64,000 nt of DNA from Roseococcus sp. (GCA_026414745.1 JAOAIK010000042.1:53404-117403); one strand, 5' to 3'; counted from the first letter of the stretch, positions 41,074 to 53,403 are shown. The notes: generated from the sequence alone by a model not told the origin. Numbers and translations are program-made.

Positions 41074-41556
41074 GTGAGGTTCCCGTTTGAGCAGCGCGCC
41101 CTGCGCCAGGCCGTTCTGGCTTTCGGCCTGGCGCTGCCGCTCGGGCTTGTGCCGGGAGAGGCGCCGGCGCGGGGCGACACGCAGCCCGTTCCCTTCCGCG
41201 TCGTCGAGGATGCCATTCCCGAGCCGCTGACGAACCAGCCGGGCGACGCCGAGCGTGGCCGGGCCGTGGCGCTCGACCGCTCGCGCGGCAACTGCATCAC
41301 CTGCCACGAAATGCCGGTGCAGGCCGATTTCCAGGGCAACCTCGGCCCGCCGCTGGACGGCCTCGCCCAGCGCTACACGGTGGGCGAACTGCGCCTGCGC
41401 GTGGTGGACAGCAAGCGCATCAACCCCGAGAGCAACATGCCCTCCTTCTACCGCATCGAGGGCCTCTACAACGTCCGCCGCGACTGGGTCGGCCGCACCA
41501 TGCTGACCGCCCAGGAGGTGGAGGATCTTCTGGCCTATCTGATGACCCTGCGCTGA
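41074..41556 (+). CDS. soxX: Sulfur oxidation c-type cytochrome SoxX
   Basis: Single CITCH haem motif; GNLGPPLDGLAQRYTVGELRLRVVDSKRINPESNMPSFYR. Confidence 0.95.
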   Translation: MRFPFEQRALRQAVLAFGLALPLGLVPGEAPARGDTQPVPFRVVEDAIPEPLTNQPGDAERGRAVALDRSRGNCITCHEMPVQADFQGNLGPPLDGLAQRYTVGELRLRVVDSKRINPESNMPSFYRIEGLYNVRRDWVGRTMLTAQEVEDLLAYLMTLR

Positions 41557-41561
41557 GAACC

Positions 41562-42035
41562 ATGGAGAACGCGATGCATCACCTCAAGGCGCCCACACGG
41601 CGCGGCGCGATGGGGCTGGCGGCGGCGGCCGCAGCTGTCGCGCTGCTGCCCATGCCCGCCTCCGCCCAGCTCTCCGCCGCCGTGCAGGCGGCGGTGGACC
41701 GGGTGCGCGGCAACCGCACGGCGCAGGAGGGGCGTATCACTCTGCGCGCCCCGCCGATCGCCGAGAACGGCAACACCGTGCCGATCACCATCAGCGTGGA
41801 CAGCCCCATGACGGCGGCGGACCACGTGACGCGCGTGCACGTCTTCGCCACCGGCAACCCGACGCCGGAGGTCGCGGTCTTCCACCTCACTCCGGCCATG
41901 GGCCGGGCGCAGGTGGACACGCGCATCCGCCTTGGCCAGACCCAGGACGTGCTGGTGCTCGCGGAAATGCAGGACGGCTCACTGTTCCAGGCGCGCTCCG
42001 AGGTGAAGGTCACCATCGGCGGCTGCGGCGGCTGA
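41562..42035 (+). CDS. soxY: Thiosulfate oxidation carrier protein SoxY
   Basis: Tat-type leader; C-terminal swinging-arm motif ...VTIGGCGG. Confidence 0.96.
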   Translation: MENAMHHLKAPTRRGAMGLAAAAAAVALLPMPASAQLSAAVQAAVDRVRGNRTAQEGRITLRAPPIAENGNTVPITISVDSPMTAADHVTRVHVFATGNPTPEVAVFHLTPAMGRAQVDTRIRLGQTQDVLVLAEMQDGSLFQARSEVKVTIGGCGG

Positions 42036-42055
42036 GCGAAGGAGGGAGACGAACC

Positions 42056-42388
42056 ATGGCGGCACCCATCGGACAGCCCCGCGTTCGCCTTCCCGCGCAG
42101 GTCCGCGCGGGCGAGGTGATCGAAATCCGCACCCTGATCTCGCACGTGATGGAGACGGGGCAGCGGCGCGACCAGGCGGGCAACGTGATCCCGCGCGACA
42201 TCATCAAGCGCTTCGAGGCGAAGTTCGAGGGCCAGCTCGTCTTCGCCATGGACCTCGCGCCCGCAATCTCGGCGAACCCCTACATCGCCTTCCAGTTCCG
42301 CGCGGAGCGCCCGGGCCGCTTCGAGTTCACCTGGACGAACGACGCGGGCGAGAGTCGGAGCGCGACGCAGGATCTCCGGCTCGCCTGA
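42056..42388 (+). CDS. soxZ: Thiosulfate oxidation carrier complex protein SoxZ
   Basis: EIRTLISHVMETGQRRDQAGNVIPRDIIKRFEAKFEGQ. Confidence 0.96.
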   Translation: MAAPIGQPRVRLPAQVRAGEVIEIRTLISHVMETGQRRDQAGNVIPRDIIKRFEAKFEGQLVFAMDLAPAISANPYIAFQFRAERPGRFEFTWTNDAGESRSATQDLRLA

Positions 42389-42427
42389 GGCGGGCCGGGG
42401 GCGCGCGTTCGGGGGAGGAGGCAGGGC

Positions 42428-43225
42428 ATGAAGATCGGGATGGTCCTGGCGGGGCTGGCCGCGGCCTCGCTTACCGCTGTTGTCGCCTTCGCGCAGGGCG
42501 AACGTCCTCCCAACCGCCCCATCCCCGATCCGCAATCGGGCCGGCATTTCGCCACCCCCGACACGCTGGCCATCCAGGACGACGATTTCCTCAACCCCGC
42601 CTTCCTCTGGGTGGAGGAGGGAGAGCAGGCCTGGAACCGGGTGGAGGGGACAGCCGGCCAGTCCTGTGCCTCCTGCCACAACGACGCGACAGAGAGCATG
42701 CGGGGCGTGCGGGCGCGCATGCCCGCCTATCACCCGCGGCTGCAGCGCGTGGTGACGCTGGAGCAGCAGGTGAACATCTGCCGCACCGAGCGCATGGGCG
42801 CGCCGCCCCTGCCCATCGACAGCCGGCCGCTCAACGCCATCACCACCTACATCGCGCTGCAGTCGCGCGGGATGCCGGTGAACGTGGACATCTCCGGCCC
42901 CGCGCGACGCTTCTTCGACGAGGGCGAGCGCTTCTACAACACGCGCCGCGGTCAGCTCGACATGCGCTGCGCCACCTGCCACGAGGAGAACTACGGGCGT
43001 TACCTCCGCGCCGATCTGCTCTCCCAGGGCATGTCCAATGGCTTCCCCACCTATCGGCTGAAGGAGCAGCGGGTGATCAGCCTGCAGTTCCGCCTGATGG
43101 GCTGCGTGCAGGACGTGCGCGGCGAGCCGCCGGCCATGGGCAGCGAGGCCTTCACCAACCTCGAGTTCTACCTCGCGTGGCGCGCGCAGGGGCTGCCGGT
43201 CGAGAGCCCCTCCGTGCGCCGCTGA
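42428..43225 (+). CDS. soxA: Sulfur oxidation c-type cytochrome SoxA (dihaem)
   Basis: CASCH and CATCH motifs; GFPTYRLKEQRVISLQFRLMGCVQDVRGEP. Confidence 0.96.
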   Translation: MKIGMVLAGLAAASLTAVVAFAQGERPPNRPIPDPQSGRHFATPDTLAIQDDDFLNPAFLWVEEGEQAWNRVEGTAGQSCASCHNDATESMRGVRARMPAYHPRLQRVVTLEQQVNICRTERMGAPPLPIDSRPLNAITTYIALQSRGMPVNVDISGPARRFFDEGERFYNTRRGQLDMRCATCHEENYGRYLRADLLSQGMSNGFPTYRLKEQRVISLQFRLMGCVQDVRGEPPAMGSEAFTNLEFYLAWRAQGLPVESPSVRR

Positions 43226-43238
43226 GGAGACGCCCCGC

Positions 43239-44900
43239 ATGATCACCCGCCGCGACCTGCTCGCTGCCGGGGCCGCGCTGGCGGCGCTGCCCGCCCGCGC
43301 CCAGCAGGCGCCGAGCCAGGAGGAGCTGCTGCGCTTCGCGCCCCTCGGCCAGGTCACGCTGCTGCACAGCACCGACCTGCACGCGCAGCTCACCCCCATG
43401 TTTTTCCGCGAGCCCGAGACCAATCTCGGCGTGGGCGAGGTGCGCGGCGTGCTGCCGCACCTGACGGGTCAGGACTTCCTCGCCGCCTTCGACATCCCGC
43501 GCGGCAGCGCCATGGCGCATGCGCTGACGCATCTCGACTTCGCCGATCTCGCCCGCCGCTTCGGGCCGATGGGCGGCGTGGACCGGCTGGCCACCGTGAT
43601 CAAGGCCATTCGCGCCGAGCGCCCGGGCCGCACCCTGCTGCTCGATGGCGGCGACACCTGGCAGGGATCCTGGACCAGCCTGCGCACCCGCGGGGCCGAC
43701 ATGGTGGCGGTGCAGAAGGCGCTGGGCGTCGAGGCCATGGTCGGCCACTGGGAGTTCACCTACGGCGCCGACCGGGTGAAGGAACTGGCCGAGGAGCTGG
43801 GCGCGCCCTTCCTCGCCAGCAACGTGCAGGACAGCGAGTGGAACGAGGACGTGTTCGGCCACACCGCCATGTTCGAGCGCGGCGGCGTGAAGATCGCGGT
43901 GATCGGCCAGGCCTTCCCCTACACGCCCATCGCCAACCCGCGCTGGATGTTCCCGGAGTGGAGCTTCGGCATCAAGGAGGAGAAGCTGGCCGAGCGCGTG
44001 GCGGCCGCCCGCGCCGATGGCGCGGCGCTCGTCGTGCTGCTCTCGCACAACGGCTTCGACGTGGACCGCAAGCTGGCCCGGCGTGTGCCCGGCATCGACG
44101 TGATCCTGACCGGCCACACCCATGACGCCATGCCCCGGCCGCTGCAGGTCGGAAACACGCTGCTGATCGCCACCGGCGCCTGCGGGAAGTTCCTCTCGCG
44201 CCTCGACATCGAGGTGGAGGGCGGGCGCATGAAGGCCTGGCGCCACGCGCTGATCCCGATCTTCAGCGAGCGCATCGCGCCGGATGCCGAGATGGCCGCG
44301 CTGGTGGCGCGGCTGCGCGCGCCCTTCGCGGCCGAGCTCTCGCGCGTGGTGGGCCGGACGGAGTCGCTGCTCTACCGCCGCGGCAACACCGCCGGCACCT
44401 GGGACGACGCGATCTGCGACGCGCTGCTCTCGGTGCGCGAGGCGGAGATCGCCCTCTCGCCCGGATTCCGCTGGGGCACCTCCCTGCCGCCGGGCAGCGA
44501 CATCACCGCCGAGGATGTCTGGGCGCAGACCGCCATCACCTATCCCAACGCCTACCGCATGCTGATGACCGGGGCGCAGATCAAGGCGATCCTCGAGGAC
44601 GTGGCGGACAACCTGTTCAACCCCGACCCCTATTTCCAGCAGGGTGGGGACATGGTGCGCACGGGCGGCCTCGCCTTCACCCTGGATGTGGCGGGGCGGC
44701 CGGGGCAGCGCGTCTCCGATCTGCGGCTGCTGCGCACCGGCGCGCCGCTGGAGGCCGAGCGCAGCTACCGCGTGGCGGGCTGGGCCTCCATCAACCAGGG
44801 CACGGAGGGGCCGCCGATCTGGGAGGTGGTGTTCGCCCATCTCGCGCGCGGGCCGCTGCGCGCCGAGCCGCGCCAGGACGTGCGGCTGCGCGGCGTCTGA
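43239..44900 (+). CDS. soxB: Thiosulfohydrolase SoxB
   Basis: TLLHSTDLHAQL, LLDGGDTWQGSWTSLRTRGADMV, LLSHNGFDVDRKLARRVPGIDVILTGHTHDAMP. Confidence 0.97.
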   Translation: MITRRDLLAAGAALAALPARAQQAPSQEELLRFAPLGQVTLLHSTDLHAQLTPMFFREPETNLGVGEVRGVLPHLTGQDFLAAFDIPRGSAMAHALTHLDFADLARRFGPMGGVDRLATVIKAIRAERPGRTLLLDGGDTWQGSWTSLRTRGADMVAVQKALGVEAMVGHWEFTYGADRVKELAEELGAPFLASNVQDSEWNEDVFGHTAMFERGGVKIAVIGQAFPYTPIANPRWMFPEWSFGIKEEKLAERVAAARADGAALVVLLSHNGFDVDRKLARRVPGIDVILTGHTHDAMPRPLQVGNTLLIATGACGKFLSRLDIEVEGGRMKAWRHALIPIFSERIAPDAEMAALVARLRAPFAAELSRVVGRTESLLYRRGNTAGTWDDAICDALLSVREAEIALSPGFRWGTSLPPGSDITAEDVWAQTAITYPNAYRMLMTGAQIKAILEDVADNLFNPDPYFQQGGDMVRTGGLAFTLDVAGRPGQRVSDLRLLRTGAPLEAERSYRVAGWASINQGTEGPPIWEVVFAHLARGPLRAEPRQDVRLRGV

Positions 44901-44906
44901 GCGCCC

Positions 44907-45641
44907 ATGGAGGTCGGCCACGCCGCGGCCGTGCTGGGCGGCGCGCTCAGCTTCCTCTCGCCCTGCGTGCTGCCGCTCATCATCCCCTATCTGGGCTTCC
45001 TGGGCGGGGTGACGCTGCGCGCCGCCCCGGGCGGGGTGGTGGCGGAGGTGCCGGCGCGCGGGCGCGTGCTGCTGGCCGCGCTGTTCTTCGTGCTGGGCTT
45101 CGCCACGGTGTTCACCGCGCTGGGCGCCACGGCCAGCGCCGTCTCGCAGCTTCTGCAGGCGCATCTGGAGACGGCGGCGCTGGTGGCGGGGGCGGTGCTG
45201 GTGCTGTTCGGCCTGCATGTGATGGGGGTGCTGCGCCTCGGGCTGCTGAACCGCGAGGCGCGGTTCCAGACGGCCGCGCGCCCCGTCTCGCCCGCCGGGG
45301 CCTATCTGGTGGGCCTCGCCTTCGCCTTCGGCTGGACGCCCTGCGTGGGGCCCATCCTCGCGGGCATCCTCACCATCGCGGCGAGCCGCGGCGGCGCGCT
45401 GGAGGGGGCGACGCTGCTCTTCGCCTACGCCATGGGCATCGGCATCCCCTTCCTGCTGGCGGCCGCTTTCGCCACGCCCTTCCTCGGCTTCGTGCAGCGC
45501 TTCCGCCGACACTTCCGCAAGGTGGAGATCGCGCTCGGCCTGCTGCTGATCGCCACCGGCCTGCTGGTGATGACCGGCGGCTTCCAGGAGATCGGCGCCT
45601 GGATGATCGAGCGCTGGCCCGAACTCGGGCGCTTCGGATGA
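44907..45641 (+). CDS. CcdA-type thiol-disulfide membrane protein (SoxV-like)
   Basis: GALSFLSPCVLPLIIPYLGFLGG; FAFGWTPCVGPILAGIL. Confidence 0.93.
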   Translation: MEVGHAAAVLGGALSFLSPCVLPLIIPYLGFLGGVTLRAAPGGVVAEVPARGRVLLAALFFVLGFATVFTALGATASAVSQLLQAHLETAALVAGAVLVLFGLHVMGVLRLGLLNREARFQTAARPVSPAGAYLVGLAFAFGWTPCVGPILAGILTIAASRGGALEGATLLFAYAMGIGIPFLLAAAFATPFLGFVQRFRRHFRKVEIALGLLLIATGLLVMTGGFQEIGAWMIERWPELGRFG

Positions 45642-45649
45642 GGCGGCGC

Positions 45650-46219
45650 TCAGCCCGCCCCGCGCCGGGCGCGCCAAGCGCGGAACTCCGTGCCGTCGGC
45701 GTACCCATGGGCGGCGACGTACTGGAACAGGGCGAGGAAGTCGGGCTTGGCCATCAGCCCGTGCATGCGCGCCACCTCTACCTCGCGGCCCGGGCGGCGG
45801 GGCGCCTGCTCGGGGAAGAAGACGATGGTGGGGGTGAAGGTGACGCGCCAGCGCCGGGCCAGCGCGCGCTCCTCCATCTTCTGCCCATCGAAATCCGTGG
45901 CCTCGCGCGCGCCGTGCAGGTCCATCTGCACCATGCGGAAGCGGGGCCGGATGAAGCCTTCGATCTCGGGCTGCACCAGGTGGTCGGTGTGCATCTCCCG
46001 GCAGTAGGGGCAGCCGCGCTGGTCGAACACCACGGCCAGGCGCAGCCCGGCGGCGGTGGCCTCGGCCAGCTCCTCGGGCAGGTCGAGGAAGCCCTCGTGG
46101 AACCAGTCCTGGGTGTAGCCGCTCTCGGTCCGCACGGGGGCGGCCGCTGCGGGCGCGATCCGGGCCAGGGCGGGAAGGGCGAGCGCGCCGAACAGCGTGC
46201 GGCGGGCAAGGCGGGGCAT
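45650..46219 (-). CDS. SoxW-like thioredoxin-fold periplasmic protein
   Basis: Signal peptide; FDQRGCPYCREMHTDHLVQPEIEGFIRPRFRMVQMDL. Confidence 0.85.
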   Translation of the reverse strand: MPRLARRTLFGALALPALARIAPAAAAPVRTESGYTQDWFHEGFLDLPEELAEATAAGLRLAVVFDQRGCPYCREMHTDHLVQPEIEGFIRPRFRMVQMDLHGAREATDFDGQKMEERALARRWRVTFTPTIVFFPEQAPRRPGREVEVARMHGLMAKPDFLALFQYVAAHGYADGTEFRAWRARRGAG

Positions 46220-46272
46220 GGCGGCGATCTCCTCCGCGCGCCATCATGCGCCCGCGCCCCCGGGGTGCGTCA

Positions 46273-47814
46273 ATGCGGCTGAGGCCCTGGCTCGATGCGG
46301 CGACCATGGGCCTGTCCAGCGCGCTGGGGCTGCTGGTCGAGATCGTCGCGGGGCGGCTGATCGCGCCCTATGTCGGCATGTCCGTCCATTCCTGGACGGC
46401 GGTGATCGCGGTGGTGCTGGGGGGCTTCTCGCTCGGCCACTGGTGGGGCGGGCGGCTCGCCGGGCCGGAGTGCGACCGCGCGCGCGGCCATGCGCGGCTG
46501 GCCTGGCTGCTGCTGGGCTGCGCCGGTGCGACGCTCGCCGCGGTGCCGGCGCTGCGCCTCGTCGCGCCCGTGCTCGACGCGCCGGGGGTGCATCCCCTTC
46601 TCGCCATGCTGGGCTTTGCGCTGGCGGGCTTCCTCGCCCCCAGCCTGCTGGTGGGCGCCGTCTCGCCCATCGTCACCAAGCTCGCGGTGGAGGAGGCGCC
46701 GCCGGGCGGGGTAGGGCGGGTGCTGGGCCGGCTCTTCGCGCTCTCGGCGCTGGGCGCCATCGCGGGCACCCTCGCGGCGGGCTTCCTGCTGCTCGCGTGG
46801 ATCGGCTCCTCGGGCGCGATGCTGGCCGCCGCCGCGCTCTATGGGCTGATGGGGGCCGCCCATGCGGCGGCCGCGCGCGGGCTGCGCCCGGGGCTCGCGC
46901 TCGCGGCGGCTGCGCTGGCGGTGCCGGGCGGGGCGGCCTTCCTGCCTGCCTTCGCCCGCGCCTGCGACGCCGAGAGCGCCTATGCCTGCCTGCGCGTGGT
47001 GGACGCAGCACCGCTCGTCGGGCAGCCGGCGCGGCTGCTGGTGCTCGATCACCTCGCCCATGGCGTGAATGTGGAGCGCGAGCCCGGCCTGCTGGTGCAA
47101 CCCTATCTGCATCTGGCGGACGAGCTCGTCCGCGCCCGCGGCCTGCCGGAGCGCCCGCGCGCCTTCTTCGCCGGCGGCGGCGCCTTCACCCTGCCGCGCG
47201 CCTGGGCCGAGGCCTTTCCCGAGGGGCGCCTGCTCGTCGCCGAGATCGACGCGACGGTGGTGCGCCTCGCGCGCGAGGCCTTCTGGCTTGCGGACTCCCC
47301 CGCGCTCGAGGTGGTGGCGCGCGACGCGCGCGCCGCGCTGCAGGCCCTGCCGGAAGGCCCGCGCTTCGACGTGATCCTGGCCGACGCCTTCCAGGACCTC
47401 GCCATGCCCGTGCACCTCGTCACGCGCGAATGGCACCGCGCGGTGCGCGCGCGCCTCGCCCCCGGCGGCGCCTATCTGGTGAACGTGATGGAGGACCGGC
47501 GCGAGCCGCGCTTCCTGCTCGCCCTCGTGCGCACCCTCGCCGAGGAGTTCGCGCATGTGGAGCTGTGGGTGGAGATGGCCGAGCAGCCGCCCGGGCGGCG
47601 CATCACCTATCTCGTGCTCGCCTCCGACGCGCCCACCCCCTTCGCGCGCCTCGCCGCCACGCGCGGGCCGGGGCGCGGCTGGGCGCGCCTGCCGCCCGAG
47701 TTCGTCGCCGCCCGCGCCGCGCGCGCGCGCGTGCCGCTGCTTACCGACGACTACGCGCCGGTGGAGCGGCTGATGTCGCACCTGCTTCTCTCGCCGGAGG
47801 CCAGCGGACGATGA
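46273..47814 (+). CDS. Fused membrane / spermidine synthase-like protein
   Basis: N-terminal MFS-like TM region (GLLVEIVAGRLIAPYVGMSVHSWTAVI) and C-terminal FFAGGGAFTLPRAW...VAEIDATVVRLARE methyltransferase-like fold. Confidence 0.82.
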   Translation: MRLRPWLDAATMGLSSALGLLVEIVAGRLIAPYVGMSVHSWTAVIAVVLGGFSLGHWWGGRLAGPECDRARGHARLAWLLLGCAGATLAAVPALRLVAPVLDAPGVHPLLAMLGFALAGFLAPSLLVGAVSPIVTKLAVEEAPPGGVGRVLGRLFALSALGAIAGTLAAGFLLLAWIGSSGAMLAAAALYGLMGAAHAAAARGLRPGLALAAAALAVPGGAAFLPAFARACDAESAYACLRVVDAAPLVGQPARLLVLDHLAHGVNVEREPGLLVQPYLHLADELVRARGLPERPRAFFAGGGAFTLPRAWAEAFPEGRLLVAEIDATVVRLAREAFWLADSPALEVVARDARAALQALPEGPRFDVILADAFQDLAMPVHLVTREWHRAVRARLAPGGAYLVNVMEDRREPRFLLALVRTLAEEFAHVELWVEMAEQPPGRRITYLVLASDAPTPFARLAATRGPGRGWARLPPEFVAARAARARVPLLTDDYAPVERLMSHLLLSPEASGR

Positions 47815-48263
47815 CCCCACGCCGGAAGCTTCTGATCCTTCCCGCCGCGCTTCCCCTCGCCGCGCGGGCGCAGCGGCGCGAGACCCCGCTCGCGGAGCCG
47901 CGCCCCTCCATGGACCAGCCGCGGCGCATCGTCGTCTCGCTCAGCGAGCGCGAGCCGGAGCGCGCGCATGCGGTGTTCTCGAACCTGATCAACATCCAGG
48001 GCTTCTACGGGCAGGACCTGGTGGAGATCCTCCTCGTCGCCTACGGCCCCGGGGTGCGCCACCTGATCGCGGCCGAAAGCCAGGTGGCCGAGCGCGTCGC
48101 GTCGCTGCAGGCCTATGACGTGGCCTTCGTGGCCTGCGGGGCGACGCTCGATTCCCTTGGTCTCGGGCCCGAAGCCCTGCTGCCGGGGGTGGAGGTGGTG
48201 CAGAACGGCCTGCCCGAGATCGTGGAGCGCACGCTGATGGGCTGGGTGCATCTGCGCCCCTGA
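47811..48263 (+). CDS. Exported DsrE-family protein
   Basis: N-terminal signal-like MTPRRKLLILPAALPLAARAQ; FSNLINIQGFYGQDLVEILLVAYGPGVRHLI; VAFVACGATLDSLGL. Confidence 0.78.
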   Translation: MTPRRKLLILPAALPLAARAQRRETPLAEPRPSMDQPRRIVVSLSEREPERAHAVFSNLINIQGFYGQDLVEILLVAYGPGVRHLIAAESQVAERVASLQAYDVAFVACGATLDSLGLGPEALLPGVEVVQNGLPEIVERTLMGWVHLRP

Positions 48264-48270
48264 GGGCGCC

Positions 48271-48774
48271 TCACATCAGCAGCCTTTCCTCCACCGCGGC
48301 GATGCCGGCACGGGCGCAGGCGTCGTCCTCCGCCCCGCCGGGCGCGCCGGAGATGCCCACCCCGCCCACGATCATGCCGCCCGCCTCCACCGGCACGCCG
48401 CCGCCCAGAAAGACGAAGCCCGGGATGTGGCGGATGGCGCTGTTCACCTGCCCCGCCTGGGTCAGCGCCGAGAGCTCCTCCGTCGAGGCGCGGAAGGAGA
48501 CGGCGGCGCGCGCCTTGCCGATCGCGGTCTCGGGCGTGTGGGGGCCGGCCAGCGCGTCGCGCAGCATCACCTGCGGCACGCCCATGCGGTCCACCACCGC
48601 GACCGCCACCTGGAAGCCCCGCGCGCGGCAGGCCTCCAGCGCGGCGCGCGCCAGATCGAGCGCGAGGCTCGGGGCCATCATCCGCATCGGGATGAAGTCC
48701 TCGGCCCGCGCGGGCGGCGCGGCGAGCGCGGCCAGCAGCGCCGCGGCGGTCAGGACAGGTGTTCTCATGCTCAT
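48271..48774 (-). CDS. GlcG/HbpS-family (haem-binding) periplasmic protein
   Basis: Signal peptide; VAVVDRMGVPQVMLRDALAGPHTPETAIGKARAAVSF; GGGVPVEAGGMIVGGVGISGAPGGAEDDACARAGI. Confidence 0.88.
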   Translation of the reverse strand: MSMRTPVLTAAALLAALAAPPARAEDFIPMRMMAPSLALDLARAALEACRARGFQVAVAVVDRMGVPQVMLRDALAGPHTPETAIGKARAAVSFRASTEELSALTQAGQVNSAIRHIPGFVFLGGGVPVEAGGMIVGGVGISGAPGGAEDDACARAGIAAVEERLLM

Positions 48775-49172
48775 CCTTCCTCCCTCATGGCCGGCGGCAG
48801 GCGCGCGAGCAGCGCCTCGGCCTGCTGCCAGAAGAACAGATCCGCCTGGTAGCCGATGATGCGGCCGATCTCGCGCCCCCCGACCACCAGCACGAAGGTC
48901 GGCGTGAAGCGCCAGTTGGCGAGGAAGCCGAGATCCTCCGGCAGGCCGCGCGCCACGTCCACGCGGCGCAGCGGCGCGCGCCGGCCGAGGTCGGAGAGGT
49001 TCCACGCGCTCTCGCCCACCTCGCGCAGCCAGCGCCGGCACCAGGCGCAGTCATGGCGCTCGAGCATGACGAGGCGCGGGCCGGCCGCCCAGGCGCGCGG
49101 CGCCGGCGCGAGCGGCACGGCGAGGGCGAGAATCCCCCGCCGCGCGAGGTCGCGGTTGATCGGCGCCTGCAT
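48771..49172 (-). CDS. Thioredoxin-like regulatory protein, SoxS-like
   Basis: RLVMLERHDCAWCRRWLREVG; FTPTFVLVVGGREIGRIIGYQADLFFWQQ. Confidence 0.82.
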   Translation of the reverse strand: MQAPINRDLARRGILALAVPLAPAPRAWAAGPRLVMLERHDCAWCRRWLREVGESAWNLSDLGRRAPLRRVDVARGLPEDLGFLANWRFTPTFVLVVGGREIGRIIGYQADLFFWQQAEALLARLPPAMREEG

Positions 49173-49293
49173 CCTCGCCCATCCTTTCGCGCTGTGCGGG
49201 AGGATTTCCCTCTGGACCTTCCCGTCGAGTTAGCTTTAGCTAGTTTGCACATAACGGGCCGCGGATGAAAGCGCGGCCAGGAGGAATCAGCTC
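49173..49293. promoter_or_regulatory. Divergent intergenic region with AT-rich island (soxS-like / cytochrome c-fccB-soxCD)
   Basis: Divergent starts 49172(-)/49294(+); TTAGCTTTAGCTAGTTTGCACATAAC with TAGCT-tt-AGCTA dyad (49231-49242); SD aggaggaa before 49294. Confidence 0.5.
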
Positions 49294-49590
49294 ATGCGCC
49301 TTGCCGCATCCGTGTTGACCCTTGGCCTGTTGGCCGCCGCGCCCGCGCCCGCGCAGGCGCCGGACGCCGCGCTGCTGGCCGGCGCCTGCCAGGGCTGCCA
49401 TGGCGTGGCCGGGGAGGGGGGGCACGGCATCCCCAGCATCAAGCAGCAGCAGACGCGCGCGGAGTTCGTCGCGGCCATGCGCGCCTTCCGCGGCAACGAA
49501 CGGCCGAACACCGTGATGGGCCGCATCACCCGCGGCTACACCGACGCCGAGATCGCGGCCCTCGCCGCGCATTTCGCCAAGCCCGAGTGA
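49294..49590 (+). CDS. Monohaem cytochrome c (FccA/SoxE-like partner of flavoprotein)
   Basis: Signal peptide, CQGCH, immediately upstream of FccB/SoxF-like gene. Confidence 0.87.
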   Translation: MRLAASVLTLGLLAAAPAPAQAPDAALLAGACQGCHGVAGEGGHGIPSIKQQQTRAEFVAAMRAFRGNERPNTVMGRITRGYTDAEIAALAAHFAKPE

Positions 49591-49603
49591 CGGAGGCCAC
49601 GCC

Positions 49604-50899
49604 ATGACGCTCCCTCGCCGCAGCCTGCTCGCCGCCGCCCCGGCCCTCGTCGCCTCCGCCCTCGCCGCGCCGCGCGCCGCCCGTGCCCAGGCGGGCGCGG
49701 GGCGCGTGGTCATCATCGGCGGCGGATTCGGCGGCGCCTCCGCCGCCCGCTTCGCGCGCGACCGCTTCCCGCAGCTCGATGTGACGCTGATCGAGCGCAG
49801 CCGCAGCTTCACCACCTGCCCCTACGGCAATCTCGTGCTCGCCGGGCGGCGCGACATGGCGAGTATCACCTTCGGCTACGAGCGCCTCGCCGCGCGCGGG
49901 GTGCGCGTGGTGCACCAGGCGGCGGTGGCGGTGGATGCGCAGGCGAAGCGCGTGCGCCTCGCCGACGGGGCGCAGGTGCCCTACGACAAGCTGATCGTCT
50001 CGCCGGGCATCGACCTGCGCTGGGGCGCGATCGAGGGCTATGACGAGGCGGCGAGCGCGCGCATGCCGCATGGCTGGATCCCCTCGCTGCAGCCGATCAG
50101 CCTGCTCGCCGCGCAGCTGCGCGCCATGCCCGATGGCGGCGTGTTCGTGATGGTGATCCCGGACAACCCCTTCCGCTGCCCGCCCGGGCCCTATGAGCGC
50201 ATCTCGATGGTCGCGGAGTATCTCAAGCGCCACAAGCCGCGCAGCAAGATCATCGCGCTCGATGCCAAGAACGGCTTCTCCAAGCAGCCGCTCTTCCAGG
50301 ACGCCTGGGCCGAGCTCTACCCCGGCATGGTGGAGTGGCGCGGCGCGTCCAACGACGGGCGGGTGGTGCGGGTGCGGCCCGCCGAGATGGAGGTGGAGAC
50401 CGAGTTCGGCGACCGCGTGAAGGGCGACGTGATCAATGTCATTCCGCCGCAGATGGCCGCCTCCATCGCGCGCGAGGCGGGGCTCGCGGCCGCCTCGGGG
50501 TGGTGCCCGATCCGTCCCACTACCTTCGAGAGCGCGCAGGTGCCCGACATACACGTGCTGGGCGATGCGACGGTTGCCGCGCCCATGCCGAAATCGGGGT
50601 TCGCCGCCTCCTCGCACGCCAAGCACGCGGTGGCCTGCATCGCCGCCGCGCTCTCGGGGCGCCCCGCGCCGCCGGCGGTGTTCTTCAACACCTGCTACAG
50701 CCATGTCGGCGACGACTACGGCATCTCCATCGTCGGCGTCTTCCGCGGCACGCCGGAGCGCATCATCGAGGTGGAGGGGGCGGGCGGCATCAGCCCGCGC
50801 AACGAGGTGCTGGGGGCGCGGGCACGCGAGTTCCGGCGGCTCGAGGCGCTGTATGCCGATGGCTGGTATGACGCGATCACCAACGAGATGTTCAGCTGA
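49604..50899 (+). CDS. Flavocytochrome c sulfide dehydrogenase flavoprotein (FccB/SoxF-like)
   Basis: Tat signal; VVIIGGGFGGASAARFARDRFPQLDVTLIERSRSFTTCPYGNLVL; TCYSHVGDDYGISIVGVF. Confidence 0.93.
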   Translation: MTLPRRSLLAAAPALVASALAAPRAARAQAGAGRVVIIGGGFGGASAARFARDRFPQLDVTLIERSRSFTTCPYGNLVLAGRRDMASITFGYERLAARGVRVVHQAAVAVDAQAKRVRLADGAQVPYDKLIVSPGIDLRWGAIEGYDEAASARMPHGWIPSLQPISLLAAQLRAMPDGGVFVMVIPDNPFRCPPGPYERISMVAEYLKRHKPRSKIIALDAKNGFSKQPLFQDAWAELYPGMVEWRGASNDGRVVRVRPAEMEVETEFGDRVKGDVINVIPPQMAASIAREAGLAAASGWCPIRPTTFESAQVPDIHVLGDATVAAPMPKSGFAASSHAKHAVACIAAALSGRPAPPAVFFNTCYSHVGDDYGISIVGVFRGTPERIIEVEGAGGISPRNEVLGARAREFRRLEALYADGWYDAITNEMFS

Positions 50900-50915
50900 G
50901 GAAGGGTAGGGACGC

Positions 50916-52184
50916 ATGAGGAGAGAGGGCGGGCTGGCCTCGCGGCGGGGCGTGATCGGGGCGGTGGCGGGGGCGGCGGCGACCCTTCCGACCGGGGCGC
51001 TCCGCGCCGCCGGGAATCCGGACAACCTTCCGCCCAATCTGCCCGAATGGGGGCGCAGCCTTGGGCCCGGCGTGATCGAGGAGACCTACGGCACGCGCTC
51101 GCGCCACGAGAAGGCGGTGCGCCGCTATGTGCCCTGGCTCACGCCCGATCGCGTCTCCTCCGTCTCCTTCACGCCGCTCGCCGAGATGCATGGCATTATC
51201 ACGCCCTCGGGCCTGCATTTCGAGCGCCATCACGGCGGGGTGCCGGACATCGACCCCGCCGACTATCGGCTGATGATCCACGGCATGGTGGAGCGGCCGC
51301 TGATCTTTACCCTCGAGGACCTGAAGCGGATGCCGCAGGTCTCGCGCATCCACTTCATCGAGTGTCCGGCCAATGGCGGCATGGAGTGGCGCGGAGCGCA
51401 GATGTCGGGCGTGCAGTTCACCCACGGCATGCTCTCCTGCTCCGAATGGACCGGGGTGCCGCTCAAGTTCTTGCTCGCCCAGGCGGGGCTGCGCCCGGGC
51501 GCCTCCTGGCTGCTGGCCGAGGGCGGCGACGCTTCGCACATGACGCGCTCGGTGCCGCTGCTGAAGGCGCTGGACGACGCCATTATTGCCTATGGCCAGA
51601 ATGGGGAGGCGGTGCGGCCGCAGCAGGGCTACCCGGTGCGCCTCGTGCTGCCCGGTTACGAGGGTAACATGTGGGTGAAGTGGCTGCGCCGGATCGAGGT
51701 GGGCGACCGTCCCTGGTTCACCCGCTGGGAGACGCGCACTTACACCGACCTGATGCCTGACGGGCTCTCGCGCCAGTTCACCTTCGTCAACGAGGTGAAC
51801 AGCGTGATCACCTACCCCTGCCCCGAGAAGCCGCTGAGAGGCAGGCCGGGCTTCGTGGAGATTGTGGGCCTCGCCTGGTCCGGCGCGGGGCGCATCACCC
51901 GCGTGGACGTGAGCGTGGACGGTGGCGACAACTGGCGCACGGCCGAACTCCAGGACCCTGTTCTGCCCAAGGCGCTGACACGCTTCCGCATCCCCTGGGA
52001 GTGGCGCGACGGGCAGACGGCCTTCCTCCAGAGCCGCGCGATGGACGAGACGGGCCGCGTGCAGCCCACCATCACCGCGCTGCGCGCCGCGCGCGGCACC
52101 GAGAGCATCTACCACAAGAACAGCATCCATACCTGGCTGGTCGAGCGCGACGGGACGGTGGTGAATGTGCAGATCGATGCGTAG
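50916..52184 (+). CDS. soxC: Sulfane dehydrogenase molybdopterin subunit SoxC
   Basis: Sulfite oxidase family; IHFIECPANGGMEWRGAQMSGVQFTHGMLSCSEWTGVPLKFLL. Confidence 0.95.
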   Translation: MRREGGLASRRGVIGAVAGAAATLPTGALRAAGNPDNLPPNLPEWGRSLGPGVIEETYGTRSRHEKAVRRYVPWLTPDRVSSVSFTPLAEMHGIITPSGLHFERHHGGVPDIDPADYRLMIHGMVERPLIFTLEDLKRMPQVSRIHFIECPANGGMEWRGAQMSGVQFTHGMLSCSEWTGVPLKFLLAQAGLRPGASWLLAEGGDASHMTRSVPLLKALDDAIIAYGQNGEAVRPQQGYPVRLVLPGYEGNMWVKWLRRIEVGDRPWFTRWETRTYTDLMPDGLSRQFTFVNEVNSVITYPCPEKPLRGRPGFVEIVGLAWSGAGRITRVDVSVDGGDNWRTAELQDPVLPKALTRFRIPWEWRDGQTAFLQSRAMDETGRVQPTITALRAARGTESIYHKNSIHTWLVERDGTVVNVQIDA

Positions 52185-52920
52185 CGCCCTGCTCTCCGCT
52201 GTGGCGGCATTCGCGCTGGGCGGACTTGCCATCGCGCAGCCCGTCGATGTGGCCCGCCTCTACCGCCCCTTCGAGGCCCCGCCGGGCGATCGAACCCGCG
52301 CCGATGTGCCCTGGCCCGCGCCGTCCCTGCCGCCGCTGCCCGCGCCCTTGCCGGGGCTCGGCCGCCCTGCCAGCCCGGCCGAGATCGCCGGTTGGGACAT
52401 CGCGGTGCGCGGTGACGGGCGCAACCTGCCCCCCGGACGGGGCACCGCGAAGGAGGGCGAGGAGCTCTACCTCCAGCACTGCGCCTCCTGTCACGGCGAC
52501 TTCGGCGAGGGAATCGATCGCTGGCCTGCGCTGATGGGCGGGCGCGGCAGCCTGCGCAGCGACCAGCCGCGGCGCACCGTGGGCAGCTTCTGGCAGCACG
52601 CCCCGGCGGTGTTCGACTATGTGCGCCGCGCCATGCCCTACACCGCGCCGCAGAGCCTCACCAACGAGGAATATTACGCCATCACCGCCTACATCCTGCA
52701 CCTCAACGAGCTGGTGGGCGAGGACGAGGTGATGGACCGCGACACGCTCCCGCGAGTCGAGATGCCCAACCGTGACGGCTTCGTGCTGGAGGCGCGGCCT
52801 GACACGCCGAATACCGCCTGCATGACCAATTGCCGCGAGGGCCGGCCCGTGCGCGTGACTATGGACAGCCGCCAGTTCGTGCCGCCAGGCTCCGGCTCGG
52901 GAACCGATCAGCCAGAGTAG
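52177..52920 (+). CDS. soxD: SoxD-like cytochrome c subunit (single CxxCH)
   Basis: GEELYLQHCASCHGDFGEGIDRWPALMGGRGSL; NEEYYAITAYILHLN; directly downstream of soxC. Confidence 0.9.
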   Translation: MRSALLSAVAAFALGGLAIAQPVDVARLYRPFEAPPGDRTRADVPWPAPSLPPLPAPLPGLGRPASPAEIAGWDIAVRGDGRNLPPGRGTAKEGEELYLQHCASCHGDFGEGIDRWPALMGGRGSLRSDQPRRTVGSFWQHAPAVFDYVRRAMPYTAPQSLTNEEYYAITAYILHLNELVGEDEVMDRDTLPRVEMPNRDGFVLEARPDTPNTACMTNCREGRPVRVTMDSRQFVPPGSGSGTDQPE

Positions 52921-52947
52921 CCGGCGGCGAAGGGAAGGGAGGAGACG

Positions 52948-53403
52948 ATGGCCAGGAAGCTGGGACGGCGCGGTGGGATCGCGGCGCTCGCCGCCGCCGG
53001 GGCGGCACTGCCCGCCATGGCACAGCCCGCGCCAGTGGAGAAGATCCTTTACCACCTCAACATGCCGGGCGGCGAGGAGTTCGCCTACTACCGCCAGATG
53101 CTGGTGAATGTGCAGAACCACCTCACCGTGCTCACGCCGGGCCGCTTCGACCTGCGCATCGTCATGCACGGGCCGGGCATCAACCTGCTGCGCTTCGCCG
53201 CGCGGAACGATCCCCAGATCGCTGCCATGGTGGACGAACTCAAGCTCGCGGGCGTGCGCTTCGAGATCTGCCGCATCACGCTGCAGCGCGGGAACATCCC
53301 GCTCGCCCAGCTCTATGACGCGAGCGAGGACGACTTGGTGCCGAGCGGCGTGGGCCAGATCGGCAAGCTGCAGCACCAGGGCTTCGCCTACCTCAAGATC
53401 TGA
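52948..53403 (+). CDS. Exported DsrE/F-like protein
   Basis: Tat-like leader MARKLGRRGGIAALAAAGAALPAMAQ; KILYHLNMPGGEEFAYYRQMLVNVQNHL; VRFEICRITLQRGN. Confidence 0.8.
   Translation: MARKLGRRGGIAALAAAGAALPAMAQPAPVEKILYHLNMPGGEEFAYYRQMLVNVQNHLTVLTPGRFDLRIVMHGPGINLLRFAARNDPQIAAMVDELKLAGVRFEICRITLQRGNIPLAQLYDASEDDLVPSGVGQIGKLQHQGFAYLKI

Follow-up and report, generated by a model that had tools for sequence, protein, structure and literature searches.

Exported DsrE-family proteins as a frequent accessory of bacterial sox clusters: a candidate periplasmic partner of SoxYZ

DsrE-type proteins are known as sulfur relays of the cytoplasm, and it is natural to ask whether related proteins could do similar work in the periplasm, where thiosulfate is oxidized by the Sox system. 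That question is raised by a stretch of 64,000 nucleotides from Roseococcus sp. (GCA_026414745.1, JAOAIK010000042.1:53404-117403; hereafter the window), in which the sox cluster holds two genes for DsrE-family proteins, DsrE1 and DsrE2, both beginning with export-type leaders. An earlier note on this DNA reported the two genes, at coordinates and with a family identity that proved correct, and implied that such genes are rare. Since they recur in the sox clusters of many bacteria, exported DsrE is more likely an accessory of the thiosulfate-oxidation pathway that has been overlooked. Four things are directly supported: a DsrE fold, export-type leaders, a near-invariant cysteine where known carriers have theirs and, in several families, recurrent linkage to soxB and soxYZ. 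What is new here is an exported, sox-linked form of the DsrE family, more general than the earlier note supposed.

The two genes lie 4.7 kb apart within the sox cluster. DsrE1 overlaps the preceding gene by four bases and DsrE2 starts 27 bases 3' of soxD, each ATG being preceded by a Shine-Dalgarno-like GGAGG. Orthologues of DsrE1 occupy the equivalent place in four other loci (L095, L096, L135 and L138), and those of DsrE2 lie 3' of soxD in L095, L096, L098 and L135. Differences from orthologues fall mostly at third codon positions (for example, 16/12/60 and 26/15/56 changes at positions 1/2/3), so both genes evolve under coding selection. Together with the Pfam matches and the synteny, this rules out chance or spurious open reading frames. 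The DsrE2 orthologue of genome G045 (L096:12990-13447) has a frameshift between leader and domain; the assembly is a single contig, and the shift could be a sequencing error.

Both proteins match the Pfam DsrE family (PF02635), DsrE1 with 32.9 bits and DsrE2 with 34.9 against a gathering cut-off of 22.7; the whole genome has four places with this domain. Structure prediction, which the earlier note had proposed for comparison with DsrEFH, agrees: AlphaFold2 models of the mature parts, built as single chains, have mean pLDDT values of 97.5 (DsrE1) and 95.1 (DsrE2), and Foldseek matched both to MTH1491 (PDB 1l1s) and ST0148 (2pd2), then to YchN and DsrEFH, with TusBCD additionally matched by the DsrE2 model. 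As modelled, then, both proteins have the DsrE fold. The best PDB match of each is 1l1s (TM 0.92 for DsrE1), and MTH1491 and ST0148, DsrE-family structures of unknown function, are also the nearest by sequence (profile E 2e-27). MTH1491 shares the cysteine of the window proteins in a C-x-N-T-like motif. The two structures differ in being archaeal, in having been solved as chains without a leader and in having no known link to sox.

The putative carrier cysteine is Cys109 in DsrE1 and Cys108 in DsrE2. These residues align with each other and with Cys78 of Escherichia coli TusD; the TusD match is short, with a weak sequence score (E about 0.1), yet it agrees with the fold. Across 39 aligned sequences, namely the window pair plus relatives drawn from soxC loci, just three residues are invariant: C74, T77 and G98 in mature DsrE1 numbering. 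A profile alignment of a larger set finds the cysteine in 96 of 98 relatives, so that a carrier-loop cysteine, already claimed in the earlier note, stands up to a check of its conservation. The two exceptions are a partial match and a Bradyrhizobium protein with alanine instead; the latter (L185:13252-13701) adjoins an intact paralogue. Each protein has one conserved cysteine and no CxxC.

The leaders (MTPRRKLLILPAALPLAARA ahead of Q in DsrE1, MARKLGRRGGIAALAAAGAALPAMA ahead of Q in DsrE2) were judged by a rule that calls for a basic n-region, an uncharged hydrophobic stretch and an A-x-A-like site, with controls drawn from the same loci. By this rule 94 of 97 DsrE relatives are exported. The controls gave 83/85 for SoxY, 79/88 for SoxB, 82/94 for SoxC, 62/72 for SoxA and 0/83 for SoxZ, as expected, since SoxY, SoxB and SoxC are Tat-type exports and SoxZ has no leader. 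The three failures are two broken or truncated reading frames (L096 and L175) and a protein of Pseudochrobactrum (L218). Twin arginines can be seen by eye in both window leaders; they are retained in DsrE1 orthologues and stand before the hydrophobic stretch in about half of all leaders (52/97). Relatives and controls together rule out an artefact of start choice, and DsrE1 and DsrE2 are thus predicted to carry good export leaders, much as first noticed.

Are such genes tied to sulfur oxidation beyond this locus? Three samples were used: 150 genomes of the window's family, 399 genomes of its phylum and 52 named loci, which were anchored on SoxC and are fully flanked, with 7 kb or more of sequence to either side. 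Of the family genomes, queried with the window protein alone, 27 have a DsrE1 relative, 26 have a SoxC above the cut-off and 16 have both, against 4.7 expected. Across the phylum, soxB is found in 61 genomes and an exported-type DsrE relative in 58, with 41 having both (8.9 expected); 41/61 genomes with soxB thus hold a DsrE relative, compared with 17/334 that have neither soxB nor soxC. In 23 of the 61, spanning seven families, no more than 12 kb separates the DsrE gene from soxB. N-termini were read in eleven of these, mostly non-Bradyrhizobium, and in the window. Every one has the leader and the cysteine motif apart from G418 (L265), whose protein begins like a membrane anchor and lacks the cysteine motif. 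At least one leader-bearing relative is present in 30 of the 52 soxC loci and two are present in 14. Exported DsrE genes are therefore a frequent accessory of sox clusters; the implied rarity is gone, and the tie to sulfur-oxidation genes extends across the phylum genomes and the soxC loci.

The commonest upstream neighbours of DsrE in these clusters are soxB (24), another DsrE (18) and soxD (16). In one recurring layout, found in Bradyrhizobium, Marinobacter, Methylobacterium and several genomes of the window's family, DsrE comes straight 3' of soxB in soxCDXYZA(x)B operons; in another, it lies 3' of soxD (the window type, another Bradyrhizobium type and Terasakiella). Methylosinus trichosporium OB3b has the order soxZ-soxB-DsrE-DsrE-DUF302, and a DUF302 gene follows or separates the DsrE pair in the sox clusters of this strain (L256:7437-8926) and Sulfurovum mangrovi (L216:8950-10801). 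DsrE relatives are equally common in soxB genomes without soxC (14/21) and with it (27/40). FccB occurs less often in clusters with DsrE (8/30) than in those without it (14/22, p 0.011), and homologues of SoxV, SoxS and SoxW may be present or absent beside DsrE, SoxS being no commoner with it (18/30 vs 16/22). A dependence of DsrE on SoxCD, FccAB or SoxV/W/S was tested across the clusters and not found; what stays constant beside DsrE is the SoxYZ/SoxB core.

The pairing itself has a pattern. DsrE1 and DsrE2 fall in different deep, supported clades, which rules out a recent tandem duplication. The tree was read for 23 paired loci, and in every one the two members belong to separate clades. Sixteen of the 23 pairs straddle the deepest division under midpoint rooting, and a single Bradyrhizobium lineage accounts for nine of these 16. 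Such pairing is suggestive of a hetero-oligomer like DsrEFH of Allochromatium vinosum or TusBCD of E. coli. The likeness to those complexes lies in the fold, in the cysteine and, for DsrEFH, in the sulfur-oxidation context; the difference is that they are cytoplasmic and have three subunits with adjacent genes, whereas here the sox cluster has two DsrE genes and both products have leaders by the rule above.

DsrE genes linked to sox have been seen before and left unexplained. In Sulfurovum indicum a dsrE gene lies upstream of soxABXY1Z1, the gene set is up 2.17-3.83-fold on thiosulfate, and DsrE and SoxW are labelled 'periplasmic and cytoplasmic thioredoxins' (PMC10045233). In Sulfitobacter, orf2, a 'DsrE family protein' whose function is not known, lies between soxB and soxC, and an orf for a heme-binding protein lies between soxR and soxS (PMC11034169). 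These genes resemble ours in being DsrE-family members inside a sox cluster; the relation to the window proteins was tested for the S. mangrovi locus only, and neither paper proposes a sulfur-carrier role, pairing or a wider distribution. A literature search that covered few subscription journals found no description of a periplasmic DsrE sulfur carrier and no biochemistry.

What might the exported proteins do? In A. vinosum, Cys78 of DsrE binds sulfane sulfur and hands it on to DsrC (PMC3397948), and DsrE3A of Metallosphaera cuprina handles S-thiosulfonate (PMC4175335). Grabarczyk and Berks, working with Paracoccus, found that underivatised SoxYZ is active only after a lag; sulfane-bearing SoxYZ is likely the working form, and sulfane-free SoxYZ is inactive until activated (PMC5336275). 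From these papers we infer, by analogy, sulfur binding, a partner and a direction of transfer: exported DsrE would load or trim the sulfane sulfur of SoxY. After export, the DsrE cysteine would pick up sulfane sulfur, with sulfide, polysulfide or over-loaded SoxY as the donor, and would deliver it to SoxY's swinging-arm cysteine or remove it from there, with the outcome that SoxYZ is kept active and sulfane-bearing or that excess sulfur is trimmed. The two paralogues would probably cooperate, as hetero-oligomer or relay, like the subunits of cytoplasmic DsrEFH and TusBCD. We consider the chances about even that DsrE1 and DsrE2 are DsrE-fold sulfur transferases serving SoxYZ in the periplasm. 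The narrower proposal, that the pair is the missing activator which supplies the cysteine of SoxY with the sulfane atom that SoxYZ must have to be on the pathway, is unlikely.

The same genes can be read in other ways. DsrE might maintain thiols, as a reductant or disulfide partner of SoxV, SoxW and SoxS that rescues SoxY from false disulfides. The window genes do flank SoxV/W/S-like genes, in Methylorubrum AM1 and Pseudochrobactrum a related DsrE gene comes after those for DsbD and a DsbA-like protein, and the label given in S. indicum points the same way; however, a single cysteine at the conserved site is not what such a role suggests, several soxCDXYZAB-DsrE clusters have no SoxV/W/S homologue nearby and SoxS is no commoner with DsrE, so that this role appears unlikely. 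The earlier note had suggested that persulfide could be shuttled between FccAB, SoxYZ and SoxCD. Of that interpretation the leaders, fold, conserved cysteine and sulfur-oxidation linkage stand, whereas the specific route, with SoxCD as its end, is now improbable. The order of the genes here and in the closest related loci would fit it, but DsrE is as common without soxC, and FccB is scarcer where DsrE is present.

Two further proposals give the cysteine a different cargo or destination. It might bind S-thiosulfonate, derived either from tetrathionate or from SoxY, like M. cuprina DsrE3A, a DsrE-fold protein that likewise passes a cysteine-bound sulfur species between proteins; linkage to soxB, the S-thiosulfonate-handling part of Sox, would fit. 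DsrE3A, however, has two conserved cysteines and a TusA partner in the archaeal cytoplasm, and we give this chemistry little credence for proteins with one conserved cysteine. Alternatively, periplasmic sulfane sulfur could be passed to a YeeE/SoxT-type importer, for use in the cytoplasm or by sulfur-responsive repressors. The sox linkage persists without SoxCD, the genome has TusA-family genes and the window has a YeeE-type transporter (PF04143, 1165-2367, + strand), but some 39 kb separates that gene from the sox cluster, and such delivery or sensing is improbable. It is very improbable that the leaders are non-functional and the proteins cytoplasmic: the leaders are predictions and the distant Pseudochrobactrum relative has no leader call, yet nearly all relatives carry one and no SoxZ control does.

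Several points weigh against a sulfur-transfer role at SoxYZ. For these particular proteins, export is predicted, and sulfur binding and contact with SoxYZ are proposed. Complete sox clusters without DsrE exist (13/40 genomes with soxB and soxC; Neoroseomonas alkaliterrae, L137), so DsrE is not core Sox. The A3 profile was made from soxC-linked sequences and favours sox-linked matches, and Bradyrhizobium is over-represented; the 150-genome test, made with the window protein alone, gives the same excess. Related exported DsrE proteins are also encoded away from sox, next to genes for TauE, for DsbD/DsbA or for an SQR-like protein, and the function may therefore be broader. DsrE2-like exported proteins, for example, lie 3' of a TauE/SafE exporter with no sox genes nearby (L113, L114 and L121), and a third exported DsrE-like protein of the Roseococcus genome (G000:C12:82234-82569, L004) lies between an SQR-like gene and a CGPC thioredoxin. 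The common theme of these neighbours is envelope thiol or sulfur chemistry.

The sox cluster of the window (Table 1) is complete, with XYZAB, SoxV/W/S-like genes, FccAB and CD, and the neighbours SoxC, SoxD, FccB and the HbpS-like protein, as first named, all have family matches. The order is soxX-Y-Z-A-B, soxV/ccdA, soxW-like (-), membrane/methyltransferase-like, DsrE1, HbpS-like (-), soxS-like (-), fccA, fccB, soxC, soxD and DsrE2. The membrane/methyltransferase-like gene has no Pfam match and is conserved together with DsrE1 in L095-L097 and L135. Many sox clusters have a gene for an exported HbpS/GlcG-like protein directly next to DsrE (among them L144, L149, L155, L167, L178, L181 and L191): those of the window type and seven with the soxB-DsrE order. 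As a statistical link, its co-presence with DsrE is suggestive only (7/30 vs 1/22, p 0.12).

Table 1. The DsrE genes and their neighbours in the window (positions counted from its first nucleotide).
Feature	Position	Strand	Basis or remark
soxX-like cytochrome c, soxY (ends GGCGG), soxZ, soxA	41074..43225	+	
soxB	43239..44900	+	TIGR04486, 791 bits vs cut-off 550
SoxV/CcdA-like thiol electron carrier	44907..45641	+	PF02683
SoxW-like thioredoxin	45650..46219	-	PF13098
Membrane + methyltransferase-like protein, 5' of DsrE1	46246..47814	+	spermidine-synthase-like by eye
DsrE1, exported-type DsrE-family protein, 150 aa	47811..48263	+	PF02635 8.1e-8
DsrE1 predicted Tat-type leader (RRKLL; cleavage between ARA and Q)	47811..47870	+	sequence, leader rule
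DsrE1 Cys109 codon, putative carrier cysteine (CGAT; family motif CxNT)	48135..48137	+	invariant in A3
Exported HbpS/GlcG-like protein, tail to tail with DsrE1	48271..48768	-	PF03928 1.5e-31
SoxS-like exported protein, CAWC motif	48771..49172	-	identity inferred by eye, no Pfam match
fccA/soxE-like cytochrome c + fccB/soxF flavoprotein	49294..50899	+	PF00034; PF21706, PF09242
soxC + soxD	50916..52920	+	SoxC TIGR04555, 617.7 bits vs cut-off 420; SoxD cytochrome c
DsrE2, exported-type DsrE-family protein, 151 aa	52948..53403	+	PF02635 2e-8
DsrE2 predicted leader (GRRGGI; cleavage between AMA and Q)	52948..53022	+	sequence, leader rule
DsrE2 Cys108 codon, putative carrier cysteine (CRIT)	53269..53271	+	invariant in A4

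If a widespread, soxB-tied exported DsrE is borne out, the periplasmic Sox cycle would also have dedicated sulfur-transfer helpers. The finding is of interest because it makes the question of SoxYZ activation testable: the DsrE genes are a concrete candidate for that step and are present in tractable bacteria, Methylosinus trichosporium OB3b being one.

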